Source of the DNA: Allomyces macrogynus ATCC 38327
Taxonomy: Eukaryota > Blastocladiomycota > Blastocladiomycetes > Blastocladiales > Blastocladiaceae
DNA: 64,000 nucleotides
Direction of reading: 5' to 3'
Assembly: GCA_000151295.1 (NCBI GenBank)
Contig: GG745345.1
Location: forward strand, 832,453-896,452
Part shown: in pieces, positions 4,433 through 62,732 of the stretch
Numbering within the stretch: the first letter of the stretch is position 1
How the letters are laid out: each line of letters starts with the position of its first letter
The notes under the pieces: generated by a model
Seen by the model: the letters and a program-made list of their open reading frames with translations, nothing else
Databases searched by the model: none
Told to the model about the DNA's origin: nothing
Program-made: the position numbers and the translations under genes

Positions 4433-4437
4433 TCATT
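4433..4437. repeat. Left target-site duplication TCATT
   Basis: TCATT sits immediately outside the left terminal inverted repeat and is repeated exactly at 19447-19451 outside the right one. A 5-6 bp duplication is what retroviral-type integrases of Polinton-like elements leave. Confidence 0.85.
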
Positions 4438-5112
4438 TGGCGCCGACCTTTGAGGTCGGCGCCACATGTGCCCTAGGACCCTGCCCTAGGTCCAACCCTA
4501 AGTAAAAATGCTGTCCTAGGTCCACGCCGCTCCAGGACCACCACCTCGATGAACCCCCACCGCGGCCACTTCGATTAATGGTTCTCGACATGCCCCTGTA
4601 AGCCTGAGGACCTGGACAGGAATTCTGGGACCTAGGTCCACGCCAGTCGGGGAATGGAATTTGGGGATATGTACCGCAAGCAAGTCTCAGAAAGGGTACT
4701 GGGGATGGTTTGACTGGGAATTGGGACCTAGGAACTTCTGTCTGGGACCTAGGTCCATGCGCGGGCAGCGCAGCTGCCCTTGGGGCCAGGGGGTTCGGGG
4801 AATGCTTGGAGATGGGTTGGGAAGGTTTGTGGACACACTTGGGCGAACTATGTCCAGGGTGTGTCCACTCCAAATGGCCTCCCAGATAGGTTTTGACACA
4901 CTGGACACACTGGACAGGGTTGAAAAAATAGATGGCTATAGAAAAAGGGGGGAGAAGATGTGCACAATCTGCACACATCCCCCTTTTTTTTTATTTTCTG
5001 AACATCAATTGAAGTGTGTCCAGTGTGTCCAGTGTGTCCATGGGTCTGGGCGGCCATTTAGAGTGGACACACCTGGACATAGTTTACCCAACTATGTCCA
5101 CTGGACCTATTT
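4438..5112. repeat. Left terminal inverted repeat (675 bp)
   Basis: The sequence is the inverted match of 18782-19446. Homology stops at AAATAGGTCC on the inner side, just before the helicase stop codon. The repeat holds several CCTAGG(TCC) motifs, tandem GTGTCCAGT units near 5015-5041, and a homopolymer of eight T where the right copy has six A. One internal patch (about 4755-4822) differs from the right copy. Open frames inside are read-through artefacts shared by both copies. Confidence 0.93.
4439..4463. repeat. Terminal palindrome, left end
   Basis: A perfect 10-bp inverted repeat (GGCGCCGACC / GGTCGGCGCC) with a 5-base spacer TTTGA begins one base inside the left end of the element. It could fold into a hairpin, and is the likely recognition feature for integrase or end replication (inference). 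Confidence 0.85.
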
Positions 5113-5120
5113 ACAAAGCT

Positions 5121-7442
5121 CTACTCACTGTCATCGTCTGAGAGGTCCATTGCCGCTGGACCACAATACTCGTACGAGGTAACCTTCCGCCCATCCACCA
5201 CCTTGCGCTTCCGAATGAAAAGCTTGTCATCACCCCGCTTGGTCGTGTCCACGGCTTGAGTCAAGGATACCCCGAGGTGAGTGCTTGACACCACTTGGTG
5301 GCCTGGGAAACGTCTCTCGACATACTTCTGGTACATGGCGTAGATGTCCCTGCTGTCCATGACCTTCTCCACCTCCACGGCCCGGCCAGGCTCCATGAGG
5401 TTCCGCGGGAAGCCCCCATAGTCCACAAACTCCTTGATAAGCGCAGCAACAGGGTCAATGCAAGCTGCCGCCATGGCATCACGGTCCTCATTCCGTGGGA
5501 ACTTGGACAGACGAATGCCCTTCAGGTCCAGGTTCATGATGTACGTGAAAATCTTGTTTGTGTTTGCCTTGACAAACTCGGCAAGCTGTTCAAAGTAATC
5601 CTCATCACAGTGGTGAATGTTTGAAACCTTGAGGCAAAACACTCGGTGACTGGTTGCTGTAAGCGGCAGAATCGCTTCGTTGTTCGAGTTAATCATGAAA
5701 TTGTTCATGTTCTTGGCCACGTAGCGGCGCATGGACTTTTCGTTGATGAGAATCTTGTCATCCGTGGTCATGTTCTTGAGCTTATCAAACATGGACCTGT
5801 GCTGCTTGAACCCCACTGCTGGCATCTCATCAAACAACACCAACGACTTGTTCTCGAGCTCTGAGTTGAACGTCTGCGCAAGGAACTGGTCTGCATTGTT
5901 CAGGGTCAGGCACAGCTCCTTTCCAAGCAGATGCTCAGACAACGTCTGGTAGAAGAACCCCTTGCCAGTCCCCTCGAGACCAGTGATGCAGAGGACCACC
6001 CCATTGGCTTTGCTCGACGTGAACAGTTCCTGCATCCATTTCAGGACATACATGTACTCTGTCTCACGGTTGCTGCAAATGACTTGCAGAATGTAGTCGA
6101 GGTATGGTGCGACCTCATCCCGCTCCACATGGCAACCCAGATTGGTTGCAGCAAACCCCGGGAAGGCATTGAAATGCTCAATGAAGCATTTCCCAGACTG
6201 CTCTCCCCACGTTGGCTTGTGGAAATCGAAAATCCGGGTCTTGACCTGTGGCATGTACCGGCCAAGGAGGTGATGGATGGTCATACCAACCGTCTCGCCA
6301 GGAACATTGAGCAGCCAGGGGTCATGAATCGACGTGCGGAAATAGTACTTGCCCACATACAAATCCTTTCGACAGAATTCGCCCATGTAGCACTTGAGCA
6401 CCTCCTTGTAGCTTTCCTGGTCATCCTTGTCATTAAGACGACCAATGTGGTGTTCCACCTTGAATGCCCACTCCTGGTCGTACGATGGTTCCCTTTTCAA
6501 AACCTCTGCAACAAATGCCTTGGGGTCATCACAGTGGTCGGGAAAGTCCTTTTCCTGCAGCTTCGTTTGGTTATGCACAATCGGCTTCTCTGCCCACTTG
6601 ACATCAAACCCAGTTTGCTGAACCGTGTGTTGATGCAGTTCCTCGAGAAGCTGCTCATTGACGCGTTCGCTTTTGACCAGCATCACGCCATCAAAGCAAA
6701 GGACACTTGGTGCAATGTCACGCTCACGGAAGAACTCAATCGCCTCCATCAGAATGATGCTCTCCACTGCTTGGAACACATTTGCCATGACTGAGCCCTT
6801 GTTCACAACCGAGACAGAGCGTTCCTTTGAGAATTGAACAATGACCGGGTAATCGGCGGCAATCTGCGGGTACGCAACATTGTACAGCATCTTGTGCATC
6901 TCCATGAGCTCTGGGTGAAGGCCTCGGGGTGGATGTTCACTAAAAATGACGCGCAGGAAATCGGACTTTTCCTTGAGCTTGTACTTGGACAGCGCCTCAT
7001 CGCGATTCTCGAGGTACAGGTCCAGAGCCTTGCTGTTGAGGTTGTAAACCGACAAGATGGTCTTGAAAATGGATGGAGCGGCTGCCACCATGTCAATGTC
7101 CTGCAGCACACCCGCCGCCAGGGCACCCCGAAAGTCCTTCTTCATCCCCTGCAGAGAAGTACTGGTTGCATAGAGACGTCCAAAGCGCTTCTCTTGGTTC
7201 CGCTTCTTGTTTGTGAACGAGTAGACAGTCTCCTTGCCATCCCCATAGGACAGGTTGAATAGGCTGTGGTAGACCTTAAGCTGCTTCTTGATGTCCTGGG
7301 GAACACCCGAGTGCTTCTTGGTGAGGTCCTTGAGCACGTCCATGTTGACAAATTCACGGAGAACGACTTGGCGACTGTCATTCAGGAGCTTGTCAAGGCG
7401 GGTCATGGTTTCCTTGAGCTGGGGCGAGATTGTGTTCTGCAT
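5121..7442 (-). CDS. TV-Pol-like DNA polymerase / superfamily 3 helicase replication protein
   Basis: This 773-residue protein is the viral replication enzyme. The N-terminal half has two motifs that fit the transposon-viral family A-like polymerase (TV-Pol): DIDMVAAAPSIF near residue 112 (motif A type) and CFDGVML near residue 247 (motif C type). The C-terminal half is a D5/superfamily 3 helicase: Walker A GLEGTGKG near residue 486, Walker B LVLFDE near residue 532, and an SF3-style MINSNNEA (motif C) near 588. The tail is acidic (LSDDDSE). The fusion of a TV-Pol module to an S3 helicase is known from PLVs and virophages. It reads outward from the shared promoter region at 7443-7571 and ends 9 bp from the left TIR. 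The frame is fully intact. Assignment of the helicase part is secure; the polymerase part rests on two motifs. Confidence 0.85.
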   Translation of the reverse strand: MQNTISPQLKETMTRLDKLLNDSRQVVLREFVNMDVLKDLTKKHSGVPQDIKKQLKVYHSLFNLSYGDGKETVYSFTNKKRNQEKRFGRLYATSTSLQGMKKDFRGALAAGVLQDIDMVAAAPSIFKTILSVYNLNSKALDLYLENRDEALSKYKLKEKSDFLRVIFSEHPPRGLHPELMEMHKMLYNVAYPQIAADYPVIVQFSKERSVSVVNKGSVMANVFQAVESIILMEAIEFFRERDIAPSVLCFDGVMLVKSERVNEQLLEELHQHTVQQTGFDVKWAEKPIVHNQTKLQEKDFPDHCDDPKAFVAEVLKREPSYDQEWAFKVEHHIGRLNDKDDQESYKEVLKCYMGEFCRKDLYVGKYYFRTSIHDPWLLNVPGETVGMTIHHLLGRYMPQVKTRIFDFHKPTWGEQSGKCFIEHFNAFPGFAATNLGCHVERDEVAPYLDYILQVICSNRETEYMYVLKWMQELFTSSKANGVVLCITGLEGTGKGFFYQTLSEHLLGKELCLTLNNADQFLAQTFNSELENKSLVLFDEMPAVGFKQHRSMFDKLKNMTTDDKILINEKSMRRYVAKNMNNFMINSNNEAILPLTATSHRVFCLKVSNIHHCDEDYFEQLAEFVKANTNKIFTYIMNLDLKGIRLSKFPRNEDRDAMAAACIDPVAALIKEFVDYGGFPRNLMEPGRAVEVEKVMDSRDIYAMYQKYVERRFPGHQVVSSTHLGVSLTQAVDTTKRGDDKLFIRKRKVVDGRKVTSYEYCGPAAMDLSDDDSE

Positions 7443-7571
7443 TGTTCCTTACTTTTGGAATGAGAAAAAAAAAGAGGGGATATGCACGAGATTATATGCG
7501 TTTGAACGCATCGATAATCCAGTCGTGTTGCAAATTAAGTCCTGAAGTTTACAAATTGGTACCAAGCAAAG
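7443..7571. promoter_or_regulatory. Divergent promoter region, helicase / zinc-binding gene
   Basis: The 129-bp gap between the two divergent start codons is AT-rich compared with its surroundings and contains an A-run at about 7467-7475. It must carry the promoters of both genes; it lacks the TTTTCTTGT-type box found before capsid genes, which would fit early expression (inference). Confidence 0.45.
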
Positions 7572-8288
7572 ATGGACGAAATCCGCCAATATACCAAGGA
7601 ACTATTCTGGTGTGCAAAGCCTGGAAAGCAAAATCCACCCAAGTCACCAGAATGGCTTGTAGACCGGCTCTCTGCCTTGTTGGAGATGCCAGTGAGAGAG
7701 GTTGAGCTGAAAATACAGCTTCGAATCCTACTTCAAGGTTTTGAACACGTCGGGCACCACAAAAAACAGCCAGATGAGGATTTGACATGTCTTTGTGGAA
7801 TTCATGTCAATGACGTGTGGATTGTGGGGAATGGCCCAGTGAAAATTGGGATTGGGACAACATGCATTAACCGAATTGATGAAGCCATGGGTAAAAAGAT
7901 TAACAAACTAATCAAAATACGTGAGCGGAAGACATTTGACTGTGTGCCATGTGGAAGGCGTCATCTGAAAACACAAGGATGTCCACTCGACAAGAAGCCT
8001 GTCCAGATTCAAACGCGAATCCCGAGTCCACCGCCAGCCTACTCTCCAATGCCTCCAGTGAAAACGTGTGTCAAATGCTCAAAACCAAATTCGACAAAGT
8101 ACGCCACATGTCAGCCATGCATGCAGAAAGCAAAGCATTGCGCGACAAAAGGATGCTCCAAACTCGTGTTCAAGGAGGGTCACCAGATTTGCTATCACTG
8201 CCACATTCAGGCGTCAGGTCCCACAAAACAGTGTCGCTGTGGCAAAATCATCAAGGCAACCTACAACAGTTGCTTCCTTTGTAAGTGA
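7572..8288 (+). CDS. Cys-rich zinc-binding viral protein
   Basis: This 238-residue protein has three Cys clusters. The first (about residues 74-100) is CLCG followed by GIGTTCINRI. The second is CVPCGRRH near 130. The third, after a Pro-rich linker, is a run of CxxC pairs (CVKCSKP, CQPC, CATKGC, CYHC, CRCG, CFLCK) up to the C-terminus, consistent with two or three zinc ribbons. The N-terminus is predicted helical. I do not recognise the family. Position next to the replication gene and absence of the late motif suggest a DNA-binding or transcription role, but that is inference. It ends in TGA, evidence that this virus uses TGA as a stop. Confidence 0.75.
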   Translation: MDEIRQYTKELFWCAKPGKQNPPKSPEWLVDRLSALLEMPVREVELKIQLRILLQGFEHVGHHKKQPDEDLTCLCGIHVNDVWIVGNGPVKIGIGTTCINRIDEAMGKKINKLIKIRERKTFDCVPCGRRHLKTQGCPLDKKPVQIQTRIPSPPPAYSPMPPVKTCVKCSKPNSTKYATCQPCMQKAKHCATKGCSKLVFKEGHQICYHCHIQASGPTKQCRCGKIIKATYNSCFLCK

Positions 8289-8308
8289 TTCTCAAACGCG
8301 TTTTGGAC

Positions 8309-8347
8309 CTAGGGTTTTTTTTCTTGTCCTAGGATAAACAAAAAAAC
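8309..8347 (+). promoter_or_regulatory. Late-type promoter box before the coiled-coil gene
   Basis: A CCTAGG motif is followed by TTTTTTCTTGT, a second CCTAGG and TAAAC, ending just before the ATG at 8348. The TTTTCTTGT ... TAAAC arrangement recurs before the major capsid gene and the 84-residue gene. Confidence 0.55.
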
Positions 8348-8919
8348 ATGGAACAAATTCTTCAGCAGCTTCTCGAGGGTCAGGCTGTCATGCTGAACCG
8401 CATTGCCCAGCTTGAACGTGGTGTTACAGTCATGACACAATTCGTTGAACGATTCCAGACAGCCATGGGTGTGAAGGCCGAGGAACCACTTGAGGAACCA
8501 CTTGAGGACCAGCCCGAGGAAGTTATCGAGCTGCCTGTTGCCGATTCGGAATCAGAGATTGTGATTCAGGAACACGAACCACTTGAGGAATTTGTGTTTG
8601 AACCGCTCCTCAAGGAGTACGTCCATGATGCCAATGACAAGCCGTGCGAAAAAGCCACCAAGAAGCGCCGTGAAAATTTGCTGACGTGGTTCAAGGGCAA
8701 TGTGTCACAGATGAAGGGGAGTGAGGGGCTCGACATTGTCGCCGAATGGTCACGACTATTCAACCTGATGAACGTGCGTCAGCTCAAGGACACGGCCGCT
8801 GCCTTGAACAGCATCAAGCTGTCGGGCAAGCGTTTCTCGAACGTGGACATTGAGGACCTCCACCACCAGTGCCATGAGTGCAGAAACCAAGGACAAGATG
8901 ACAGGTTGCTCAATGCAAG
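8348..8919 (+). CDS. Unknown viral protein, N-terminal part (runs into gap)
   Basis: About 190 residues are readable before the N gap. Residues 1-40 are a probable coiled coil (MEQILQQLLEGQAVMLNRIA). A strongly acidic stretch with EEPLEEPLED repeats follows, then a basic/helical segment (KKRRENLLTWFKGNVSQMKG). The end of the gene is lost in the gap, so length and function are unknown. A virion core or scaffold role is possible but not shown. Confidence 0.6.
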
Positions 8920-9019
8920 NNNNNNNNNNNNNNNNNNNNNNNNNNNNNNNNNNNNNNNNNNNNNNNNNNNNNNNNNNNNNNNNNNNNNNNNNNNNNNNNN
9001 NNNNNNNNNNNNNNNNNNN
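8920..9019. other. Assembly gap (100 N)
   Basis: Exactly 100 N, commonly a gap of unknown size. Frames on the two sides do not join convincingly, so one or more viral genes or gene parts may be missing here. Confidence 0.95.
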
Positions 9020-9064
9020 TCTCCTGGCCATTTTCATTTCAGCTGCTGTGGGCCTGCGTTGTGA

Positions 9065-9517
9065 CCAGTGTACCTGACGTGTGCCAAGACCAATGACTAC
9101 CCCTACCTCGAAGTCGAGGGTGAGCACCTCTGGATGCGCGGTCCGATTATGAGCGCCAAGGCCAAGGACAAGGGGTACAGCATCAATGTGCTCATCGACC
9201 CAGCATTCGCCAGCCACATCACCGCCAGCGTCCAAGAGCGTGCCAAAATGGGCCAGAAATTTGTTTTCACCGATTTGGTGGACGAGGACAAGGACAAGAG
9301 CTTTGACCGCTATTCCAGACTCATCCGCACAGCATCTCAGAGCATTCCGGAGTTGAATGGCGCAAGTACTGTCGATTTCCGCAAGGCTCACGTGACCCAC
9401 GACCTGGGCCTGTACAAGCGCAACGCCATGACCTATGAGGAGCTCAACGCCCAGTTCTCTGCACGCGGGCACAGTCTGGCCGTGCTGGACCATTACTACC
9501 GCCCGGACGCGGAATAG
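9065..9517 (+). CDS. Unknown viral protein, C-terminal part (after gap)
   Basis: About 150 residues ending in RPDAE and a TAG stop. The segment is rich in charged residues and includes LWMRGPIMSAKAKDKG and KFVFTDLVDEDKDKS. In the same frame a TGA lies at 9062-9064, just after the gap, so the true beginning is either lost in the gap with an in-frame stop, or reached by a frameshift from the frame reading LLAIFISAAVGLRCDQ. I do not recognise the family. It ends 22 bp before the integrase start. Confidence 0.5.
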   Translation, partial: PVYLTCAKTNDYPYLEVEGEHLWMRGPIMSAKAKDKGYSINVLIDPAFASHITASVQERAKMGQKFVFTDLVDEDKDKSFDRYSRLIRTASQSIPELNGASTVDFRKAHVTHDLGLYKRNAMTYEELNAQFSARGHSLAVLDHYYRPDAE

Positions 9518-9539
9518 ATTTTGTTGAGTACTTGTAAAG

Positions 9540-10826
9540 ATGGCCAAGAAGCAGTCCAAGGAACAAGACCATAGCAACGACCCAAATCGCCAGCCGCTGA
9601 GCGGACCCCAGGAGCTATTCTTGAAACGGTTGTATTATGAATGGTTTCCAGGCGCAGGGTACCACGCTCTGTATGAGGCAGTTGTGCGTGAGGCGCCATC
9701 GACTCTCCCCCACATTTACCGCAACCAGGTTCGGGAATGGCTGAACACACAGGAGCTGTACCAGCGCAACAAGCAGCCCCCTCCCAAGCGTGACATTTGG
9801 CGCATCCAGGCCACCTCTGTTTCGCGCGTCTACCAGCTGGACCTCATCGACATGGGCGAAGAGCGTATGTGGAAGGGCTTTCGCTATATTTTGAACGTGG
9901 TGGACGTGGCCAGTCGCAAGCTGTTCCTGGAGCCACTCAAGAAAAAGACACAGGGAACAGTGTACCTCGCATTCAAGAAAATCGCCAAGCATGAGCACTT
10001 TGGCAACAACCTGACCATCCACATGGACAATGGCGGTGAATTCGCTGCGTTGAAACGTGACCTGAGCATTTGATGTGTGCTGGGCAAGCCCCATGTACCC
10101 ATGGGCCAGGGAATGGTCGAGTCGCTGAATAAACAGGTGCGGCGTTATGTCAACATGTATCTGCAGCAAGGCTACAATGACTGGCCCATGGCTATCCCTC
10201 GATTCCAGGATTCGCTGAACTCTTTGTCGCGGAGAGGCACTGGCGGTCTGTCGGCCAATGAGGCTCACGAGATGCCCAAGGAAGAGTCCAAGGTATATTT
10301 TGAGGAACTGAAAGCAAAACAAACGCGCAATGATGACCCGCTCAATGACAATTTGCTGCCACTCGGTGCCACTGTGCGCTACCGATTGCCATACAAGAGT
10401 CAGCTGGAGAAAAAGAACATGCCCACGTACAGTGCCACGCTGCATACCATCGTTCAGCGTCGAAAAGGCACGGGCATCAGCAGTCCTTCGTATACAATTT
10501 CAGACATGCCTCGCTGGTACAATGCCAGCGATTTGCAGGTCATCAAAAAGGTCGAGGCGTATGAACGTGAGAAGCGGCCTGTGGTGCAGCGCGTCAAGAA
10601 CACTTCGAATGTGGTCATGGTCCCAGCTGAGCAAGTGCTGAGGCGCTCAGAGCGTCTTCGCAACAAGCAGGCGCCAGAAGCAGTGCCAGTGGAGCCTGTC
10701 CCTGAGCCCACCCCAGAGCCAGAGCCAGTAGAAGAGGAGCCGTTTGTGCCACGTCGCTCAAAGCGTATCCAGAATAGGTTAGCGCAACAGGTAGAGACTC
10801 AGGGTAACATGAACGCCAACCGCTGA
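9540..10826 (+). CDS. Retroviral-type (rve) integrase, interrupted by one in-frame TGA
   Basis: This is the enzyme expected to insert the element. The DDE triad is visible: first Asp in YQLDLIDM (about residue 100), second in IHMDNGGEF (163), Glu in GQGMVES (194). The D2-E spacing is 4-5 residues shorter than the usual 35. A TGA at 10071-10073 (codon 178) separates the second Asp from the Glu, yet the same frame continues intact for 249 more codons. The C-terminus has two basic RRSxR motifs (RRSERLRNK and RRSKRIQNR) on either side of a Pro/Glu linker. Without read-through the product lacks the catalytic Glu. The last 48 bp overlap the convergent fibre gene. Confidence 0.85.
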
Positions 10827-12794
10827 CAGAGTGACATCACTCATCCAGTTGAAGCAGTAGGTGTGGGTCGAGTCAAGATACACTGGGGCTGATGCACTCA
10901 TCCATGTATTGCCAGACTTGACGCTCTGGGCAGAGACCAGGGTGAGTGAACCGGGGAAATTCCCTGCTGTGCTGCTCGTGTAATCGTAGAGATATACAGT
11001 GGCATTGTGCTCAGCAGACGGATTGCTTGTGTACCAGCACAATGTGTTTGTCATGTACCATCCACTGGTTGAGACAGTGAAACACCCACCAGTGCCAGAC
11101 GCGTTAAACGCACCTGCAGGAACTGAGCTGTTGATGATGGCTGTCTGCATGTTTGTGCCAGCGAGTTTCACAAATGAGGTGGCTGTGAACGCAATGGGCG
11201 CCGAAGAGTTGAACATAATCTGGCCGTAGCGGAGGGTTGGAAGCATGCTCGCCTGCACCTGTCCCCATGTTGCCGCGTGGTTGTTTGCCGTGGCATCTGA
11301 GCACTGAACCGTCCTGTTTACCTGCAGCTTCGAGGTCCCACTGGGAGCCGCTCCAATCGACATGTTCCCCCCAGCACACACTTGGATACTGTTGCTGCTG
11401 CTCGTGTTCAATTCACTGTAACCATATGCGCGGTTGAAGGCCAAATTCATGAGCTTGGAGCCCGTGAGTGTCGTGAAATCAATATAACACACGCCATTAC
11501 TGCCCCCACCATCGTTGCAGCGCATTTCAAAGCCTGCATTCCCGCTGTTGTAGAGGTACAACCCTCGGGTGGTTGCCCAGTTGGCCCCGATGCCACCAGA
11601 GACAACGAGTGCACCTGTTGTTGCACTGGTCGTGGCAGTGGTATCAGTGATGCGTGTCTGGCCGCCAACCCACAGACTCTTCCCTACACCCAACCCACCC
11701 GATACGACCAGGGCACCAGTCGACGAACTGGTACTGTCAGTGGTGTTGGTGAAAGTGTTTTGGTTTGCTGTGCTGACCATTCCAGCGGTCCCAGTGGCAA
11801 TCAGCGAGTTGACTTGGGACAGGGGTGTCAGGTGAGTGCCCACGGTAGCCGTTGCACCACTGACATTCCCAGTTGCAACCACATTGCCGCCCACATACAG
11901 ATTCTTTGCAACGCCTGCCCCACCAGCCACTGTCAGTGCACCACTGCCAGAAGACACGCTGTCAGTCGTCAGAGTCAGTGCCACGGCAGACGATGGGGTG
12001 AGAAAGCCCGTGGTGCCTGCTGAAATCAAACCCTGAACCTGTGTGAGGGTCGGCACATGGGAGCCGGCGACAGCTGTGGCAGCTGTAAGGTTCCCCGTGA
12101 CGGTGGCATTGCCGCCAATGTTGACGCTCTTTGCCACCCCCAGCCCACCCTGAATGACAACACCGCCCGTTGACATTGTGGTGCTCTCTGTCGTGTTGCC
12201 AAATGTGAATTGCTGGCCCAACCCAAGTGTTGACTGCGATAGTGTCCCGCTCACAATGGACCCATTCACAGACGACACCTTGGTGCTCACGTCTGGCAGA
12301 TTGGCCAGCGGGACGGTCCCAGTCAGTTTTGTTGAGTCGAGACCTGAGATTTGCGTGTTGGAAACCTGGCCAATGAGCTTGGTGGCGCTCAGACCATTGA
12401 GACTTGTGTCGCCAAAGGTGCCTGTGACCTGCGATGAGGGGATGCTCGGGAGGACACTCAGAGGCAGCACGCCTGAAGTAATTTTGGCCGCGTCCAGTGA
12501 CACGACCTTTGCATTTGTAACCGAGGCGTCAGTCAGCCGTGAGCCATTTACAGTGGACAGCTTGGCGTCTGAAATACCACCATCTTTCACAGACAGCTGG
12601 TTGTTGGCATTCACGGAAAAGGTGGCCGTGTCATAAGCCAGACTCACATTGCCACCAGTGACTGTCAGGGGAGGGGTTGCCACTGTGGATGCTGTGCCTG
12701 CCACTACATTGGTGATTGCTGTGGCCAATTCGGCGTCTGTGGCATACGAGCTATCATCCGCAATGAGCCCAAATACGTTTAGTGGAGTGTTCAT
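10779..12794 (-). CDS. Repeat-rich fibre/adhesin-like virion protein
   Basis: This 671-residue protein is rich in Ser, Thr, Gly and Val. Residues 1-200 have short repeats of the LSTVNGSRLTDASVTN / LSQSTLGLG type found in trimeric phage and giant-virus fibres. From about residue 215 to 420 come four repeats built on TGALVVSGGLGVGKSLWVGG (variants GGVVIQGGLGVAKSVNIGG, GALTVAGGAGVAKNLYVGG). The last 150 residues, with YLYDYTSS and a final TLSLYLLR, resemble a jelly-roll tip of the C1q type (inference). It lies antisense to the neighbouring structural genes and overlaps the integrase end. A host-attachment fibre is the most economical reading. The frame is intact. Confidence 0.75.
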   Translation of the reverse strand: MNTPLNVFGLIADDSSYATDAELATAITNVVAGTASTVATPPLTVTGGNVSLAYDTATFSVNANNQLSVKDGGISDAKLSTVNGSRLTDASVTNAKVVSLDAAKITSGVLPLSVLPSIPSSQVTGTFGDTSLNGLSATKLIGQVSNTQISGLDSTKLTGTVPLANLPDVSTKVSSVNGSIVSGTLSQSTLGLGQQFTFGNTTESTTMSTGGVVIQGGLGVAKSVNIGGNATVTGNLTAATAVAGSHVPTLTQVQGLISAGTTGFLTPSSAVALTLTTDSVSSGSGALTVAGGAGVAKNLYVGGNVVATGNVSGATATVGTHLTPLSQVNSLIATGTAGMVSTANQNTFTNTTDSTSSSTGALVVSGGLGVGKSLWVGGQTRITDTTATTSATTGALVVSGGIGANWATTRGLYLYNSGNAGFEMRCNDGGGSNGVCYIDFTTLTGSKLMNLAFNRAYGYSELNTSSSNSIQVCAGGNMSIGAAPSGTSKLQVNRTVQCSDATANNHAATWGQVQASMLPTLRYGQIMFNSSAPIAFTATSFVKLAGTNMQTAIINSSVPAGAFNASGTGGCFTVSTSGWYMTNTLCWYTSNPSAEHNATVYLYDYTSSTAGNFPGSLTLVSAQSVKSGNTWMSASAPVYLDSTHTYCFNWMSDVTLSAVGVHVTLSLYLLR

Positions 12795-12826
12795 GTGGAT
12801 TATTATATTCTATGCACAAAATTAAA

Positions 12827-13081
12827 ATGAACAGCTTTGAAGAACAGTTTGAGACGCTGGACGAGGTCGGCGAGTACCTTGGTCTGCCCAAAGCCTTCTA
12901 CGACCTCGATGATGGGGCCAAGGAAGCCTACATTGACCGCTACATGAAGGAGAAGCAAAAGAAGCTGCGCCGGTACCGGTTTGTCAAGGACACCACAGAC
13001 CAGGACCGTGCCTTGGCAGTCCGTGACCGAATGCGTCTCAAACTGAAAAACCGTGAATGGAGCGGGAGAAGGCCCAATTGA
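12827..13081 (+). CDS. Small basic unknown viral protein (84 aa)
   Basis: I start it at ATG 12827 (MNSFEEQFETLDEVGEYLGL) and not at the in-frame upstream ATG, because the upstream codons overlap the divergent fibre start and read as leader sequence. The N-half is acidic and helical; the C-half is basic (KEKQKKLRRYRF, ending NREWSGRRPN). Function unknown. It ends in TGA. Confidence 0.6.
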   Translation: MNSFEEQFETLDEVGEYLGLPKAFYDLDDGAKEAYIDRYMKEKQKKLRRYRFVKDTTDQDRALAVRDRMRLKLKNREWSGRRPN

Positions 13082-13096
13082 AACTACTTCTTGGAT

Positions 13097-13161
13097 TATA
13101 AAGTTGAAAACGTGCTAGTTTGTAGCATCTATAAAGTTGAAAACGTGCTAGTTTGTAGCAT
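13097..13161. repeat. Tandem 32-bp direct repeat
   Basis: Two identical 32-bp copies (13097-13128 and 13130-13161), starting TATAAAGTTGAAAACG, are separated by one C. They fill the space between the 84-residue gene and the 79-residue gene. Each begins with a TATAAA-like box, so they may be a duplicated promoter. Confidence 0.85.
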
Positions 13162-13245
13162 TCCAAAATTGTAAAATGTGGAACTTGCACAGTGCAATTC
13201 AGACAATTTAATTTTGTTGCTGAAAGATAAACATTCATTTTCAAC

Positions 13246-13485
13246 ATGGCACGCCAACGTGGCACCAGAGGGCCACGCAAAGATTCCGAGCCTCACAAGG
13301 AACTCATCAGAACAATCTTTCAACAGAACTCAGATGTCATTGTCCCTTACAACAACCCTGACAGGAAACTTGGTGCCGGTTACCGCATTATTAAGACAGG
13401 TAGGCACAGGTATCATGACTCGCTGTCCAGGGTCATCAAAGAACTTGTCGAGTACTTCAACTCAATTGACCGCAAACCACTTTGA
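13246..13485 (+). CDS. Small basic unknown viral protein (79 aa)
   Basis: A 79-residue Arg/Lys-rich protein (MARQRGTRGPRKDSEPHKEL at the N-terminus), ending in TGA 12 bp before the next gene. Basic charge suggests nucleic acid binding. No family recognised. It follows the tandem 32-bp repeat. Confidence 0.6.
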   Translation: MARQRGTRGPRKDSEPHKELIRTIFQQNSDVIVPYNNPDRKLGAGYRIIKTGRHRYHDSLSRVIKELVEYFNSIDRKPL

Positions 13486-13497
13486 AGCCAAGAGGAC

Positions 13498-14874
13498 ATG
13501 GAGTTGCTCGACTCTGTGATGCGGGGCATAAACAAAATCAAACAACGCAAGCAGAAAACTGTCGAGGATGGCGGGGAAATTTCGGATTCGGATGAAGATG
13601 AAATGGATGTGGACAACAGGGCAAACGATGTTGAGCGGTCAGACGTTGAATTGTCAAGTGATGAGGAAGCGGGACCGTCTGGCACAAACCCCAACAGAGA
13701 CATACAGTATCCTCCGCCAGATAACATGCGGGTGACGCGTGGACGTGCACAGCCTGAGATTGTCATTGAAGTGCCCCGTCCAGATATGCAAATGGTGCCC
13801 GCTAACCGCTCTCTCCCTCCCGTCGTTGCTCCAGGTGGGCAAATGGTACCTGTAGACCCCTCTCTCCCTCCCATCCTTGCTCGCCAAATGGCAGAGGAAC
13901 CGCCCACTGCTCTTGTGCCTGTGCCGGACGATTATGAGCGAGCAGTATCAACCGCACAAAACAACAATGGTGTCGCCGGCCCAGTGGGTGGCAATCACCA
14001 GGCAGTCATGCTCGCACAGCAGAACAACACCCTGAACCAGCAGAACATCCAGAACAACCTTACGCAGAACAATCTCACGCAGAACACACTCAACCAGCAG
14101 AACATCCAGAATATCCAGAACATCATTCAAACATACCCAGGCATCGAACCAGCACTCGCCACACTGTTCCAGGGCATCCAAGCCACATTCCTCAATGTCA
14201 GTGAGCGCAACGATGCACTCCTGCAAGCCCTGAATGGCCTGGAGATGGAACTCAAGGCAGAGGGTGGGAACACTGCCCAGCTTGCAAGCCAGTACGTCCA
14301 AGAGCAGCTTGACCACTTTACAAGTGAGCAAACAGCGCAAAACTTTGAAAACAATCGCGAGATTAAGGACAACAAGGCGCGAATCAACAAGATTGGGCTC
14401 ATTACAGAAGCACTCGCAGATGGGCAATCTTCAATGCAGGCAACGCTCGAGCAAGTCCCTGAGCAGCTCTTGAGCCTCCCTGGTCGTGTCATTGACGCTC
14501 TCAACCAGTCAGCCAATAACCCCCTCAACAAGCTATCAGGCATCCTCGAACAGGCGCAGAACACGGTGGAGGTCATTGGCGCCAATGGTGGGAGCCGTGG
14601 TGGTGAAGGAGATGGCGGTCCAGGTCTCCAGGAGCAGAAGATGATGAACGACATGCTCAAGCAAATTGCCAGTGCACTTAATAAGACCCCTCGCATGCCA
14701 TGGGACGACAAGCCACGCACTGTCGACAACTACTTTGCCACAGTGCCCCGTTTCCGCAAGAACCCACGTGCACCTTTCACAGTGCCAGCAAAGGTTGGGG
14801 CGCGTGTCATCAAACCACAGGGACCAAAGGTCTACTATGTCCCACAAGGCTTTGGTGGTGTCCAGGACAAATAA
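13498..14874 (+). CDS. Asn/Gln-rich coiled-coil viral protein (458 aa)
   Basis: Residues 20-60 are very acidic (SDSDEDEMDVDN). A Pro-rich linker follows, then a stretch near residues 175-210 made of repeated LNQQNIQN / NNLTQN units. The centre has heptad-like helices (VSERNDALLQALNGLEMELK). The C-terminus is basic and aromatic (PQGPKVYYVPQGFGG). The layout of acidic head, coiled coil and basic tail would suit a virion core or internal scaffolding protein. That is inference; the family is not recognised. It ends 21 bp before the packaging ATPase, as in a structural gene cluster. Confidence 0.65.
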   Translation: MELLDSVMRGINKIKQRKQKTVEDGGEISDSDEDEMDVDNRANDVERSDVELSSDEEAGPSGTNPNRDIQYPPPDNMRVTRGRAQPEIVIEVPRPDMQMVPANRSLPPVVAPGGQMVPVDPSLPPILARQMAEEPPTALVPVPDDYERAVSTAQNNNGVAGPVGGNHQAVMLAQQNNTLNQQNIQNNLTQNNLTQNTLNQQNIQNIQNIIQTYPGIEPALATLFQGIQATFLNVSERNDALLQALNGLEMELKAEGGNTAQLASQYVQEQLDHFTSEQTAQNFENNREIKDNKARINKIGLITEALADGQSSMQATLEQVPEQLLSLPGRVIDALNQSANNPLNKLSGILEQAQNTVEVIGANGGSRGGEGDGGPGLQEQKMMNDMLKQIASALNKTPRMPWDDKPRTVDNYFATVPRFRKNPRAPFTVPAKVGARVIKPQGPKVYYVPQGFGGVQDK

Positions 14875-14895
14875 TTTTCAGCGTAAAGAGTAACC

Positions 14896-15684
14896 ATGTT
14901 CACTGTGAAAGCACTTGACAACCAGGCCCATCGTGGGGGTCCCTATTTGGTCCCCAAGATACCAGCCACTGTGACCCTGCTTGGGCCCAAAGCAGCAGGG
15001 AAATCAACAGTCGCACTGAACATGATTTTGTCACCGCAGTGTTGGCGGCACTGTTTCTCTAAAATTTACGTGTTTTCGCCCACCTCACACCTTGACCCAA
15101 AGTGGCAGCAGCTTACTGAGACGCCTGTCCTCAAACACGACCCGAAAGCCCCCTACAACCCAGAGCTGCTCGCCGTGTCACGCGACTCCTTTATTCATGA
15201 AATTGATGAAATGGAGGCCAAATTAAAGGAAATCGCCATGCTCCAGGACCCGGAGAAGCGCGACTTCACCAAGCACCCTGGAAAAATTGACAACATGCTC
15301 ATTGTGCTGGACGATATTGCAGGCACAAAGTTTGCCCGCTCACGCTTCCTGGACAGCTTCATTGCACTGTCACGCCATTGACACATCTCCATGATTATCT
15401 CAGTGCAGCTTTTCAAAGCCATTACCCCCCTGGCTCGAAACAACATGTCATATTACGTGCTATTCGAGACTTACAACAGAAGTGAACTGAGAACCATCTA
15501 TGAAGCAATTGGAGGTTCCTTTCCATGGGAAGAGTTCATTGAAGTGTGCAACCAAATTTTTGAGAAACCGCATGCCACATTCAACTTCAACATGCAGAAC
15601 GCAGGTCTCAGGTATCGTTACATCAATTCATTCCACTCCTTTATCATGCGAAAACAGCATCTGGATGAGGACGAATACTCGTAA
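14896..15684 (+). CDS. FtsK/HerA-type genome-packaging ATPase, interrupted by one in-frame TGA
   Basis: The protein would pump viral DNA into the capsid. Walker A is GPKAAGKST (residues 30-38) and Walker B MLIVLDDI (about 134-141). The conserved arm after Walker B reads ALSRH, then the TGA at 15379-15381 (codon 162), then HISMIISVQ. This matches the RHxxIS...Q signature of A32-like ATPases with the TGA standing for one of the variable positions. Downstream the frame is open to TAA at 15684 (about 260 residues in total). Either the codon is a single recent nonsense mutation or it is read through. The gene is directly followed by the major capsid gene. Confidence 0.87.
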
Positions 15685-15719
15685 TTTTTTTTCTTGTGTC
15701 TTTTCTAAACCCCCTCAAC
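15685..15719 (+). promoter_or_regulatory. Late-type promoter of the major capsid gene
   Basis: The 35-bp gap before the major capsid ATG reads TTTTTTTTCTTGT, then TAAACCCCCTC. The same pair of words, TTTTCTTGT and TAAACCCCCTC, occurs before the gene at 17064 and, in part, before 8348. Confidence 0.6.
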
Positions 15720-17033
15720 ATGACTTCACCCGTGACTAACTTTGCCAATGTCCTCCTGACGTCACTCGGCAAGGAGATGATTTACACTTCCCCCAAGCAG
15801 GCGCCAGTTGCTGACCGCACGACCATCAAATTCCCGTGCACACAGGGTTCTGCATTCTCTGCATCTGGCAATGGTCTTGGTTCGACCATCCGTTTCCAGA
15901 TTCCGGCTGTGAACAAGATTGTGGACTTGTCAGCTGGTGTGCATTTTTCGTTCAAGGCCTCGACGTACAAGGACGCAGTGTGCACTCAGCCCACGACTGC
16001 TGGTGCCCCAGAGACGTACTTTACCGAAGATTCCACTCGTGTGTTCAACGCCTTCGTGTGCTTAGTTCCTCTGACCAGTTGCTTGAAGACATTGACGGGT
16101 ATGGCTTACTTTCATGGATGTTGAGTGACGCCACTGTCCCATCCGCGCTCAAGACCACAGTGCTGTCAATTGGCCAGGGCTATGGCGACCCTGTGCACCG
16201 CTCGGGCTCAAACCGCCAGTTCATGTTCCCACTGCACTCTGCTCTCCTGACCCAGGACCGCTGGCTCAACCTCAAGCACACTTTGGGCCTCATCATTGAA
16301 ATTACGCTCGCTGAGCCCAAGGCTTGCATGATTAACACCACGGGCACAGTTGGTGGCTACATTGTCAGTGAGCCATACCTTATGGTCGACACAGTGACCC
16401 CCCACGCTGCCCAGCTTGCTCAACTTGATGCTGCATGGGCCTCAGCTGGTGGCGTCATGTTCACTGGTACCACGTGGGCACGCAAGACTCCTGCCTTTGT
16501 CACCCCCACAGGCTCGATTGTCGTGTCGGACCGTCACAGCATGCAGAAATGCATCCCTTGCAGCATTCCGCACGCCCCAGTACCATGGCAAGGCCAACGT
16601 GGACCCCCTGGCTCGCGGACTGCCCATCACGAGTTACCAAATCAAGAACGCCGATGAGATGGTCCAGCTGCGTCCCATTGACTGCACAGGCTATGCCCCA
16701 GAGGCCCTGCATGAGCTTGAGGTCTTTGCAAAGGGCCACACCGTTGGTGAACTGACACCTGCCAAGTGGATTGACCGTGGCTATGTCTCAGGCGGCGCGT
16801 TTGTGCCACCTCAGGGTCAGTTCATCCTTGCACGCACCTTTGAGACCTCCTCGCTCATCTCAGGTTCAGACAAGGCCAAGAAGTCGGGTGTCGACCTTGA
16901 GATTCTCACGACTGGTGACCCCTTCCCAGTTGACAACACCCTTGGCACTGTTGCCTATCGCTGCGATGTCTTTGTTGGCTACGTGACCTCGATTTCCTTC
17001 AATGCTGACGGCTCAGTGGATGTCTTCAATTAA
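15720..17033 (+). CDS. Major capsid protein, two compensating frameshifts
   Basis: About 437 residues. The frame starting at ATG 15720 (MTSPVTNFANVLLTSLGKEM) runs to about 16058, where a one-base loss moves reading to the next frame (SSSDQLLEDIDGYGLLSWML onward). Near 16550 a one-base gain restores the first frame (DPLARGLPITSYQIKN to the end, DGSVDVFN). Residue composition, length and position between packaging ATPase and minor capsid fit a PLV double jelly-roll major capsid; this is mainly context plus general similarity, as I cannot run a structure search. No long homopolymer lies at either break, so simple homopolymer miscalls are not the obvious cause. As written, translation would stop at 16124. 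Confidence 0.8.
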
Positions 17034-17063
17034 TTTTCTTGTTAGATAGTTAAACCCCCTCCC
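17034..17063 (+). promoter_or_regulatory. Late-type promoter box before the 84-residue gene
   Basis: The gap contains TTTTCTTGT, TAGATAG and TTAAACCCCCTC ending directly before ATG 17064, nearly repeating the major capsid promoter. Confidence 0.55.
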
Positions 17064-17318
17064 ATGAACATCCGCTCAATTTGGACCTCATTCAAGCTTG
17101 CCCTTGCAGCTTATGGGCATCACCTCATGAACAACTTCAAGAACATTACTTATGGTATTCGTGAGGTAGCCCGTTTTGCAGCTGTCATTCCTCCACTGGC
17201 TGGTCCTGCTGCATTCGTGACCAGTGCCACCAACATTGCGGATGACATTTATGACCTCTTTGACGCATGGTCAGGTACAAGCCCCTCGGACAGTGGTGGA
17301 ACAGCAGGAGGCGTGTAA
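17064..17318 (+). CDS. Small hydrophobic virion-type protein (84 aa)
   Basis: The 84 residues include a central hydrophobic/amphipathic segment (RFAAVIPPLAGPAAFVTSA) and a Gly/Ser-rich tail (GTAGGV). Its place between the two capsid genes suggests a minor virion component, perhaps membrane-active like adenoviral protein VI. That comparison is by position only; no sequence match is claimed. Intact frame ending in TAA. Confidence 0.6.
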   Translation: MNIRSIWTSFKLALAAYGHHLMNNFKNITYGIREVARFAAVIPPLAGPAAFVTSATNIADDIYDLFDAWSGTSPSDSGGTAGGV

Positions 17319-17340
17319 ATTTTTTCTCAGATAGCTTTAA

Positions 17341-18129
17341 ATGTCAGTCCCTCGCATCAAATATATCACCGTGTGCTCCAAGGACCTGGAGAATGGGGTC
17401 TCATGGCGCCTCCCCACGTGCCATCCAGAACCCGGGGCATTCGAGTGGGCCGTGCCATGATTCCCCAACACATGGTACAACATCACTGAGACCAACAATA
17501 TACTCTATATTCGTGCCAACTATAACTATAACTATTATGAGGGTGGTGTTATGGTGCCTGCTGCATATTACACTCCACAATCACTCTGCGACAAGCTCAC
17601 AGAACTGCTCAACAACAACAATGCCGAATTTAACTGGAGGGGGACGTGGTCCGTGACCTGGAACTCGTCCACCGGTCGTGTCACCATCGCCAACAGTGAC
17701 ATGCACTTCCGTATTTGGCGCAACAAGCCAAATAGCATCCATCGAAATCTCGGATTTGGCACTGAGCCTTGGTTGGACGATAGCGTGAATATTACTGGTA
17801 TTGCCGGCTATTCAATAACTGGTGATTACGCCATCGGCCTCGCCCGCATTGAGACGATTCACCTCAAGTCCAACCTCGGAACCATGTTGGCAGACTACAC
17901 CCACTCGTCCTTTCCCAATGTTGGCTCACTCGTGGCGTCTTTCCATGTGCAGGGCGGTTGGGGTCAATCATTCGTATACCAGAACTCGTCCAGTGAATTC
18001 TTCAACTTTGATTCGAAAGCCATCACTGAGGAAGTCACGGAAATTGAGCTTGAACTGTGTGATGACAAGCTGCGACCCATCAACTTCAATGGCCACAACT
18101 GGACCATCCAGCTCGCGTTCCTGACCTAA
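17341..18129 (+). CDS. Minor (penton-like) capsid protein, interrupted by one in-frame TGA
   Basis: Reading from ATG 17341 (MSVPRIKYITVCSKDLENG) gives 262 residues with a single TGA at 17458-17460 (codon 40), after which the same frame continues (FPNTWYNITETNN) to TAA at 18129. The composition, rich in Asn, Thr and aromatic residues with beta-type patterning, and the position after the major capsid fit the single jelly-roll penton of PLVs. The first 70 codons are real because protein-like sequence continues across the TGA. A start at ATG 17551 would give a 192-residue truncated product. Confidence 0.75.
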
Positions 18130-18159
18130 TGAAAATTTATTTTTGATTGTATATAGTAA

Positions 18160-18276
18160 ATGCTCGGCTTTGAAGTTGCGATTCTGTGCGTGAACATCGC
18201 CATCCTCCTGTCGCAGTTTGCCATCATTGGCTACAATGCCCGCCACAACAAGGGCCACAAATTTAATCGCGACTAA
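18160..18276 (+). CDS. 38-residue single-membrane-span viral protein
   Basis: A short frame from ATG 18160 to TAA 18276. Residues 4-25 form one membrane helix (FEVAILCVNIAILLSQFAII), followed by a short basic tail (ARHNKGHKFNRD). It is preceded by an AT-rich gap (TTTTTGATTGTATATAGTAA) like other late genes. Size and layout suggest a small membrane or lysis/entry-related protein; function unknown. Confidence 0.6.
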   Translation: MLGFEVAILCVNIAILLSQFAIIGYNARHNKGHKFNRD

Positions 18277-18334
18277 GTCTAAATGCAAACGCACATGTGC
18301 CTCGTTTTTTTATTCAGACTCAAAGACAAAGGCA

Positions 18335-18496
18335 ATGAAGGTTCTCGGGGCGTCAACTCAAAACCTCCATGGGCAGGAGCCAAAGACAGTGGAGCAACCA
18401 CCCAGAACAACCAACCAGAGAACCCGGCCAGTCTTCCCTACAGCAGTCCGCGTTCAGCTCAAGCCCGGCGAAGTCTACCGCCTATCCTTTAACTAA
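18335..18496 (+). CDS. Possible 53-residue viral protein
   Basis: ATG 18335 opens a frame ending VQLKPGEVYRLSFN at TAA 18496. It overlaps another frame of similar size from 18283, and I prefer this one because its end looks more protein-like. No family recognised. The gap to the right TIR (18497-18781) has two more short overlapping frames (18533-18694 and 18615-18749) that I do not call. Confidence 0.35.
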   Translation: MKVLGASTQNLHGQEPKTVEQPPRTTNQRTRPVFPTAVRVQLKPGEVYRLSFN

Positions 18497-18781
18497 CCGT
18501 GTCTCGCACACTGCACGTAAACCATTCGTGCAATGTGTATTCATTCATTCATATCGTGGAGGTGGTGGAGGGTCATTTTCCTGGCGTGTCCAGTTGGAGC
18601 GGGCTACTACGACAATGGTCCCACAAACGTTGCAGAGGTACTCGACGTATATCACAAAGTTGGGCACGCGTGTGCACCACTTGGGTGGCACTGAACAGAC
18701 ACAGCTGACTGGCGTCTGGTTTATGGAGTTCATGGTGTTCATGGTTTAGCACATGGCAAGAAAACTTTGGTGGCTGTCCGA

Positions 18782-19446
18782 AAATAGGTCCAGTGGACAT
18801 AGTTGGGTAAACTATGTCCAGGTGTGTCCACTCTAAATGGCCGCCCAGACCCATGGACACACTGGACACACTGGACACACTTCAATTGATGTTCAGAAAA
18901 TAAAAAAGGGGGATGTGTGCAGATTGTGCACATCTTCTCCCCCCTTTTTCTATAGCCATCTATTTTTTCAACCCTGTCCAGTGTGTCCAGTGTGTCAAAA
19001 CCTATCTGGGAGGCCATTTGGAGTGGACACACCCTGGACATAGTTCGCCCAAGTGTGTCCACAAACCTTCCATCTCAGATTTCCGAAACCCCTTGGCCCA
19101 GAGAAGCGTGCGCGGCCGCGCAATGAACCTAGGTCCCAGAAAAGAAAGTTCCCTAGGTCCCAATTCCCAGTCAAACCATCCCCAGTACCCTTTCTGAGAC
19201 TTGCTCGCGGTACATATCCCCAAATTCCATTCCCCGACTGGCGTGGACCTAGGTCCCAGAATTTCTGTCCAGGTCCTCAGGCTTACAGGGGCATGTCGAG
19301 AACCATTAATCGAAGTGGCCGCGGTGGGGGTTCATCGAGGTGGTGGTCCTGGAGCGGCGTGGACCTAGGACAGCATTTTTACTTAGGGTTGGACCTAGGG
19401 CAGGGTCCTAGGGCACATGTGGCGCCGACCTTTGAGGTCGGCGCCA
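18782..19446. repeat. Right terminal inverted repeat (665 bp)
   Basis: The inverted counterpart of 4438-5112. It is nearly identical apart from small length changes in homopolymers, a few C/T differences and one divergent patch (about 19068-19126) that contains GCGCGGCCGCGC. It carries the same CCTAGG motifs and tandem GGACACACT units. Confidence 0.93.
19421..19445. repeat. Terminal palindrome, right end
   Basis: The same 10-bp-stem, 5-base-loop palindrome as at the left end, again one base from the element boundary and in the same orientation, apart from the TTTGA loop, because it is self-complementary. Confidence 0.85.
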
Positions 19447-19451
19447 TCATT
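19447..19451. repeat. Right target-site duplication TCATT
   Basis: Exact copy of 4433-4437, directly outside the right TIR. The following 19452-19790 hold no gene that I can support. Confidence 0.85.
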
Positions 19452-59541: not shown

Positions 59542-60583
59542 ATGGCCGCCGCCACCTCCTCTCCTACGGCCCCGCTGCACTCGCTCGTCAAGTACGACAA
59601 CCCGACGCTCGTGGCCAAATCATCGTCGAACCACGACAAGACGCCGGGCAAGGCCGCGGTCGGCACGCACGACCGCCCGCAACTGGCACGGCCCGGGTCC
59701 GACAAGGCGCACAAGTTGCCGCCGGTCGACGATAAGGGCGCGCGCGCCAAGTCGCCGACGCCGACCGAGGATATCTTGAATAGTATTTTGCCGCCGCGGT
59801 ATGCGCACTTCCATGGGCCGACGCTGTGTGCGGCAGAGACTGATCGCCGACCGGGGCGTGGGACGGTAGAGAATGGGACGACCATGGCCAGCTGTGGGTG
59901 CAGCGCGTGTCGAGTACCCCGGCGACACGGCTCGACGTGATCAACTTGCAGGTCCGTCTGCACCGTATGCCGCCAATCGGTTGCGCGTAGGTGCTTGGCT
60001 CACGCATCGTGTGTACGGTCGTGTAGGAACAACTCGACCAAATGCTGCAAAAGCGGCAAGCGCGCGAGACTGGCATCTGCCCGGTCCGTCGCGAGCTCTA
60101 CAGCCAGTGCTTTGGTACCGTGTCCCTCGCCAGGCGTTTCCGCCCGCCCCTCCTCATGACCCCACACTCACCTCACCGGCCGCTCCCTCATCCTCGACAG
60201 ACGAACTCATCCGGCAAGTCACCATCTCGTGCCAAGAACGTGGCCTCCTCCTGCTCCGCGTGCGTGACGAAATCCGCATGTCGATCGCGGCCTACCAGAC
60301 GCTCTACGAATCTTCCGTCGCGTTTGGGATGCGTAAAGCCCTCATGGCCGAATGGGGTAAAGCCGATATGGAGGCGCGCACGAAAGCGCTCGAGGACGAC
60401 AAGCGCGCGCTCGAGACGCAAGTGGCTGAATTGAAGGCGAAATGTGAAGCAATTGAAAAGCGTGAGGCCGAGCGGCGCGCCATGGACGAGCGCAAACATG
60501 CCGAGGAATTGGCGTTTATGAAAAAGACGAATCTGCAGCTCAAGACGCAGCTCGAAGGGATTTTGGCGCCGCAGAAGAAGTGA
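59542..60583 (+). CDS. DNALI1: Axonemal dynein light chain p28 (DNALI1-like), 4 exons
   Basis: An inner-arm dynein light chain of motile cilia. Exons 59542-59798, 59870-59951, 60027-60114 and 60201-60583 join in phase to 269 residues. Conserved blocks are LVKYDNPTLV, EDILNSILPPRE, GQLWVQRVSSTPATRLDV, QLDQMLQKRQARETGICPVR with RELYSQCFDELIRQV, GLLLLRVRDEIRMSIAAYQT, ESSVAFGMRKAL, and a long C-terminal coiled coil ending LEGILAPQKK. Nearly all conserved p28 blocks are present. The gene is direct evidence that the host makes a flagellated stage. Introns are 71-86 bp. Confidence 0.94.

Positions 60584-62685: not shown

Positions 62686-62732
<47 letters not shown>

Follow-up and report, generated by a model that had tools for sequence, protein, structure and literature searches.

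The 64,000-base stretch of Allomyces macrogynus DNA analysed here (the window; C58:832453-896452 of a searched genome of 54.0 Mb in 75 contigs) carries an element of 15 kb, at positions 4438-19446, with the organization of an integrated polinton-like virus (PLV). The element is flanked on both sides by the 5-bp target-site duplication (TSD) TCATT, at 4433-4437 and 19447-19451, and ends in terminal inverted repeats (TIRs) of about 670 bp, the left one at 4438-5112 (plus strand) and the right one at 18782-19446 (minus strand), which are 95% identical across 680 aligned columns. The GC content is 52% in the element and 62-63% in the flanks. Both host flanks align, on one strand, to a second locus on contig C61 (left 76%, right 82%), and since the two matches sit only 63 bp apart there (the unmatched flank edges in the window total 61 bp, with the duplicated 5 bp counted twice), the duplicated C61 locus corresponds to the empty site. 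These alignments indicate that the element is a real insertion and that the homeologous C61 locus is without it.

From left to right, the element encodes a helicase, a cysteine-rich protein, a gene that bears an assembly gap, an integrase, a fibre-like protein, a 458-aa protein, an ATPase, a putative major capsid protein (MCP) and a putative minor capsid protein (mCP). The 773-aa replication protein (5121-7442, minus strand) matched the Pfam family DUF5906 at 4.6e-19, which we take to be an SF3-type helicase, and in a search of PDB its family profile matched chain 6k9c, named as a primase, at 1.1e-24; its N-terminal half may resemble a family-A-like polymerase, judging by a motif. The 238-aa cysteine-rich protein (7572-8288, plus strand) had no Pfam match. 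At another locus, L025 (C61:1233900-1239218), the spacing from the helicase to the next gene is only about 430 bp, compared with 906 bp in the window, and the cysteine-rich gene may be absent or shorter there. The following gene (8348-9517, plus strand), without assigned function, is broken by a 100-N assembly gap at 8920-9019, whereas in L025 and L026 it stays open for 355 codons or more; from its start to the integrase there are 1171 bp in a gap-free copy and 1192 bp in the window, and the gap is therefore about its nominal 100 bp. The rve-type integrase (9540-10826, plus strand; PF00665, 2.5e-8) is divided by an in-frame stop into two open reading frames (ORFs) in the same frame. The 671-aa fibre-like protein (10779-12794, minus strand) matched Av_adeno_fibre (E 4.1e-5). 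This adenovirus-fibre match is N-terminal, 68 matching pieces of the protein were found genome-wide, several divergent element groups included, and a role as a host-attachment spike is possible.

The structural and packaging genes occupy the right part of the element. In other copies, too, the C-terminal part of the 458-aa protein (13498-14874, plus strand) is found upstream of the ATPase. The A32-like packaging ATPase (14896-15684, plus strand) matched Pox_A32 weakly in the window copy (E 0.12), while an open copy from another locus gave a clear match (6.6e-9), and a PDB profile search returned nothing usable (E at least 0.31). Next to it, the putative MCP (15720-17033, plus strand) belongs to a conserved gene of 437-441 codons that stands beside the ATPase, and it is from this gene order and conservation that its putative identity derives. 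The MCP had no Pfam match, its PDB profile search gave only senseless matches (fragaceatoxins, E at least 0.87), and single-sequence AF2 models, made from the window's own sequences without an alignment, reached a pLDDT of 28.9 (C-terminal MCP piece) and 35.3. After the MCP comes the putative mCP of 261 aa (17347-18129, plus strand), whose N-terminal part is out of frame and which is open from 17461; in open copies it matched DUF5901 at 3e-6, barely above the cut-off, and its PDB profile search gave no sensible match, the 'Lysozyme' match at 3e-4 being a spurious product of a 24-residue repeat. Among the scanned ORFs there was no match to pPolB, which the assembly gap is too short to hide, and none to a maturation cysteine protease.

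To describe the decay of these genes, we compared them with the copy on C48, which is 98-99% identical. All differences in the window ATPase are substitutions, and of its 262 codons the frame covers the first 161; the MCP frame is split by one single-base deletion and one single-base insertion; and the mCP carries three single-base insertions within its first sixth, while a 6-base gap at the start of the mCP alignment is an edge effect. The helicase genes of the window and C48, the closest pair, show 18 differences, all 18 of them transitions and 17 of CpG type, with a dN/dS of 1.36. Among other copies, the dN/dS of the ATPase was 0.05-0.15 and that of the MCP 0.06-0.23, in the comparisons that allowed its calculation, while the helicase gave 0.12-0.39. 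Of the 19 MCP loci that were scanned (L041-L059), 11 have an open MCP frame of 437-441 codons. The low dN/dS between copies, together with the decay in the window, thus points to structural genes that are selected between integrations and to copies that drift after insertion. The observed/expected ratio of CpG is 0.67 in the element and 1.27-1.28 in the flanks; it is about 1.05 in the MCP genes of the young copies L054 and L055. CpG depletion and CpG transitions are likely to be both a mark of methylation and a clock.

These results bear on an earlier note on this DNA (the original prediction), which had described a complete PLV in one contiguous piece, with replication, integration, packaging and capsid modules, and had seen in it a source of mobilisable virus. 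The evidence is good that a polinton-like element is integrated in the genome of a zoosporic fungus, and the repeats and the 5-bp duplication lie where they had been placed, with inner TIR edges at about 5112 and about 18782. The copy is complete from end to end; it is not intact, since the integrase, ATPase, MCP and mCP are all interrupted, and the 100 N within it contradict a contiguous piece. Regarding the modules, the helicase and the rve integrase stand by their Pfam matches and the ATPase by its open copy more than by the window copy, while the capsid proteins are putative. Being decayed, the window copy does not itself provide a mobile virus. What the present analysis adds are the terminal palindromes, the multi-copy family and the assembly gap.

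The element belongs to a family within this genome. Matching stretches numbered at least 64 for the TIR, 38 for the helicase, 29 for the N-terminal MCP piece, 26 for the integrase piece and 27 for the mCP, counts that are lower bounds and in which several rows can belong to one copy; when neighbours among the 29 MCP rows were merged, 21 MCP-bearing loci remained. The TSD was exact in 12 of the 14 elements with both ends read, matched in four of five letters in C64 and did not match in C55. The borders are mostly TG...CA, with TA...TA at one of the two C66 ends. Near-identical TIR stretches were found in C41b (100% over 1469 bp), C60 (99.9% over 1236 bp) and C59 (99.8% over 1224 bp), and these copies look young. 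In the element at G000:C41:184667-201137, the helicase matches at 63% but the integrase at 35% and the mCP at 29%, which suggests separate histories for its replication genes and its structural ones. Beyond this genome, relatives were sought in one database, IMG/VR, where a scan with the helicase found two loci (L086 and L087) at 25% identity; the ORFs of L086 read like those of a bacteriophage.

The TIRs contain palindromes at both their inner and their outer edges. The left TIR has at its inner edge a long imperfect palindrome of 273 nt (4829-5101, plus strand), which folds as DNA at -91 kcal/mol (z -15), and its counterpart in the right TIR lies at 18793-19062 (minus strand). A 209-nt palindrome (L034:1147-1355) occupies the same position in C60 (-67 kcal/mol, z -13.7), C41b and C66 have shorter inverted arms at the inner TIR, and the inner-TIR scan found no inverted arms of at least 25 nt in the C65 stretch. 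The inner palindrome adjoins the helicase gene, just beyond its stop codon, and may possibly be a terminator, an origin or a foldback element.

At the outer edges, the outermost 27 nt on both sides of the window element (4438-4464, plus strand; 19420-19446, minus strand) form a perfect palindrome with 12-nt arms and a 3-nt loop, a putative hairpin end. In a scan for perfect palindromes with arms of at least 11 nt and loops of at most 4 nt, these two ends were the only ones in the 64,000 bases, and 20 block shuffles gave one in total. The same scan of 12 loci of other elements found one palindrome apiece in nine, and in two of the nine, L035 and L037, the palindrome is not tied to an end, so that the class is rare, not exclusive to ends. 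For six single terminal hairpins, the predicted folding energy is -15 to -16.3 kcal/mol (z -6.6 to -8). Searches with exact 16- and 26-nt terminal patterns returned 0 matches.

To determine whether pairing is maintained across copies, we aligned the termini that share the window's palindrome group. This first group comprises 40 rows, or 37 distinct termini (three places were read twice), and 32 of the 37 carry a palindrome or near-palindrome, mostly followed by CATGTGCCCTAGGACC, while five carry none. The covariation set consisted of 31 aligned termini (28 distinct), leaving out L007, L008, L010, L015 and L078 (no palindrome) and L079, which has a palindrome that the script did not anchor. Arm positions were paired in 95.2% of cells over the 31 termini, as compared with 30-47% in slid registers, and cells with both sides changed numbered 26 against 8.8 in shuffles, a value reached in 0 of 500. 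The double changes fall in pairs 3/25, 6/22 and 7/21; pair 6/22 is C-G in 18 rows and G-C in eight, with no broken cell. Where arm cells are unpaired, the difference is almost always C/T or G/A, which is what CpG decay would produce, and mismatches of other kinds occur in L020 and L009 (length-shifted) and as single transversions in L077 and L080. Taken together, the alignment indicates that pairing in the first group is kept by compensatory change.

Palindromes with other letters stand at the ends of other elements. One is common to C59, C60 and C67 (six ends), and C66 and C41b have their own (two ends each); all five elements carry the palindrome at both ends and have a 5-bp TSD. Single candidate ends come from two C65 elements (one each, with related palindromes that differ by a switched pair) and from C73 (one), their partner ends being unread or N. 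L093 and L099 are all N, and L098 has 610 readable bases without a palindrome, its end possibly lying in the N. Over all groups, a palindrome was present at 45 of the 50 ends read (32 first-group and 13 others), in about six sequence groups.

The orientation of the palindromes can differ from that of the repeats that carry them. In the window, both read the same on the plus strand while the remainder of the TIR is inverted, so that the right palindrome is inverted relative to its TIR, a flip/flop relation; of five 27-nt termini in all, two are in one sense and three in the other. The commoner TG/CA loops also occur in both senses. CpG decay of a CG loop would yield both TG and CA, and therefore explains this difference equally well, and the TG/CA loops were not counted as flip/flop.

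The five hairpin-less ends belong to one end each of C57, C61:996247, C64, C61:1234416 and C75:53838. Those of C57 and C64 begin TGCCCTAGG, and the opposite end of each has a palindrome. Since C57 (TSD exact) and C64 (four of five letters) were integrated with a TSD although one end lacks the hairpin, the palindrome seems dispensable for integration, which speaks against an integrase site only.

The explanation that we favour, and consider probable, is that the element is an integrated PLV, a decayed member of a large proviral family, with fold-back hairpin ends that act as telomeres. Seen directly in the loci are the marks of rve-type integration, the empty site and the set of genes, along with the decay of the element and palindromic ends that carry compensatory changes. 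In the proposed cycle, the free genome would be a linear duplex, each end of which would form a fold-back hairpin of 25-27 nt serving as a telomere. A nick at the hairpin base would open the hairpin, which would then be copied and could thereby be inverted relative to the TIR; the opened and copied hairpin would give a blunt TG...CA end, which would suit an rve integrase and be joined by it to the target. Fold-back copying of this kind would keep the arms complementary while their letters drift, would sometimes invert the palindrome and could lose it, and a hairpin lost before integration would leave a hairpin-less junction. After integration, CpG would change to TpG or CpA, most simply via cytosine methylation and deamination, and the genes would decay.

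Several observations weigh against this explanation. No free viral DNA was seen, closed or folded genome ends being deduced from integrated copies, and no nickase or resolvase was identified, so that the step of opening and copying is one that we infer. Two of the five covariation measures stay within the range of the shuffles: the pairs with a double change numbered three, compared with 3.9 in shuffles, and the further pair types 13 against 11.6. Moreover, the covariation cells count related sequences and not events, and perfect 11-nt arms are present in only 13 of the 31 registered termini. The termini that show flip/flop clearly are few (the two ends of the window element, and five 27-mers in all), and C41b and C66, which have asymmetric single-base loops, show the same sense at both ends, although flip/flop allows this. 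To these are added the five ends without a palindrome, an MCP that is putative and whose double jelly-roll fold is not established, and the IMG/VR scans with the MCP, the ATPase, the N-terminal integrase piece and the mCP, in which no relatives were confirmed.

Among the other readings, the one that survives best is that the terminal palindrome is not a telomere and instead serves the rve integrase as a binding or cleavage site, through dimer or cruciform recognition. The position of the palindrome exactly at the integrated end, the mostly TG...CA borders and the precise 5-bp TSDs would suit such a site. Of a sequence-specific site one would expect conserved letters, whereas the arm letters vary among groups with the pairing kept, and C57 and C64 retained an exact and a four-of-five-letter TSD, respectively, in spite of being among the elements with a hairpin-less end; we therefore regard this reading as unlikely. 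The element could also be an ordinary protein-primed polinton or PLV, its palindromes being a roleless by-product of TIR evolution through gene conversion of the arms, as polintons and many PLVs usually have long TIRs together with an rve integrase (PMC12220804). This account, for which no pPolB match was found among the scanned ORFs, leaves some six distinct palindromes, almost equal in length and placed exactly at the ends, whose complementary arms would need fold-back copying anyway, and we hold it to be improbable. A large transposon mobilised only within the genome, with the capsid genes as passengers, would fit the several broken genes of the window copy and the 21 MCP-bearing loci in one genome; the open MCP frames at 11 of 19 loci and the low MCP and ATPase dN/dS indicate selection between integrations, and make it a poor candidate. 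An assembly artefact or chimera, which the 100-N gap within the element might suggest, is hardly credible in view of the matching TSD, the empty homeologous site and the 14 elements of which the two ends can both be read within host sequence.

Returning to the hairpin telomeres, their extension to a general proposal, that PLVs of zoosporic fungi replicate with hairpin telomeres, as giant viruses and poxviruses do, instead of with protein-primed ends, is one that we put forward tentatively, as something short of an even chance.

The host genes in the window agree in part with those named in the original prediction. A gene for a p28-type axonemal dynein light chain is present at 59868-60556, and the response-regulator ORF at 61172-62770 is compatible with the proposed SKN7, while an HSF-type domain was not seen in that ORF. 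Another axonemal dynein light chain is encoded at C61:1074876, on the contig of the homeologous empty locus (G000:C61:1060993-1062747), which suggests a larger duplication in the genome. At 43013-44455, the window encodes an ADAM-like reprolysin metalloprotease with a disintegrin domain (Pfam 7e-35 and 6e-17), in a fungal genome. The genome also encodes a rhodopsin-guanylyl cyclase fusion, which was considered as a mark of Blastocladiomycota and dropped, as Chytridiomycota have the fusion too (PMC9616733); it marks a zoosporic fungus.

The extension of PLV host range that had been claimed is not new, since Bellas & Sommaruga (2021; PMC7805220) had already described genes for the MCP, ATPase and helicase of PLVs from Allomyces macrogynus, as well as a PLV from Spizellomyces punctatus. 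The fungal and oomycete elements of that study include some with TIRs and three with TSDs of 5-7 bp, and its fungal PLVs are like the present element in having a host with flagellated spores and in combining MCP, ATPase and helicase. No terminal palindrome is described in the accessible part of that paper; the boundaries, the copy family and the decay are added here. A D5-type helicase in A. macrogynus is reported in PMC5294986, and a survey of protists excluded fungi (PMC10120064).

With Mavericks/Polintons and Mavirus-type virophages, the element has in common the rve integrase, the TIRs, the short TSDs and the packaging ATPase, and it differs from them in being without a match to pPolB or the cysteine protease and in having a helicase-type replication protein and hairpin-like ends. 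To our knowledge, it is an open question by what means PLVs that lack a protein-primed polymerase replicate the ends of their DNA, and a palindrome kept by compensatory change in many copies would be a concrete and testable answer to it. The family offers an age series within one fungal genome, in which elements with 99.8-100% identical TIRs stand beside CpG-eroded ones. In the open-licence literature on polintons, virophages and hairpin ends, as far as the available texts extend, we found no description of hairpin ends in PLVs.

Parvoviruses have hairpin-ended genomes. So do PBCV-1, poxviruses and African swine fever virus, as described in PMC11788076, PMC6260650 and PMC11814242. The genomes of all these viruses are free, whereas the hairpins proposed here are deduced from integrated copies of a 15-kb element. 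We know of no rve-type integration in any of the four. If the general proposal on PLVs of zoosporic fungi is true, hairpin telomeres would occur in small integrating viruses that encode capsids, which would link them to the hairpin-ended giant viruses and provide a possible intermediate stage in the acquisition of such telomeres by nucleocytoplasmic large DNA viruses. With all four hairpin-ended systems, the element has in common a short terminal fold-back and pairing that is kept; two inverted forms of the end, suggested by the window's opposite ends and the 27-mers, may be a further common trait.

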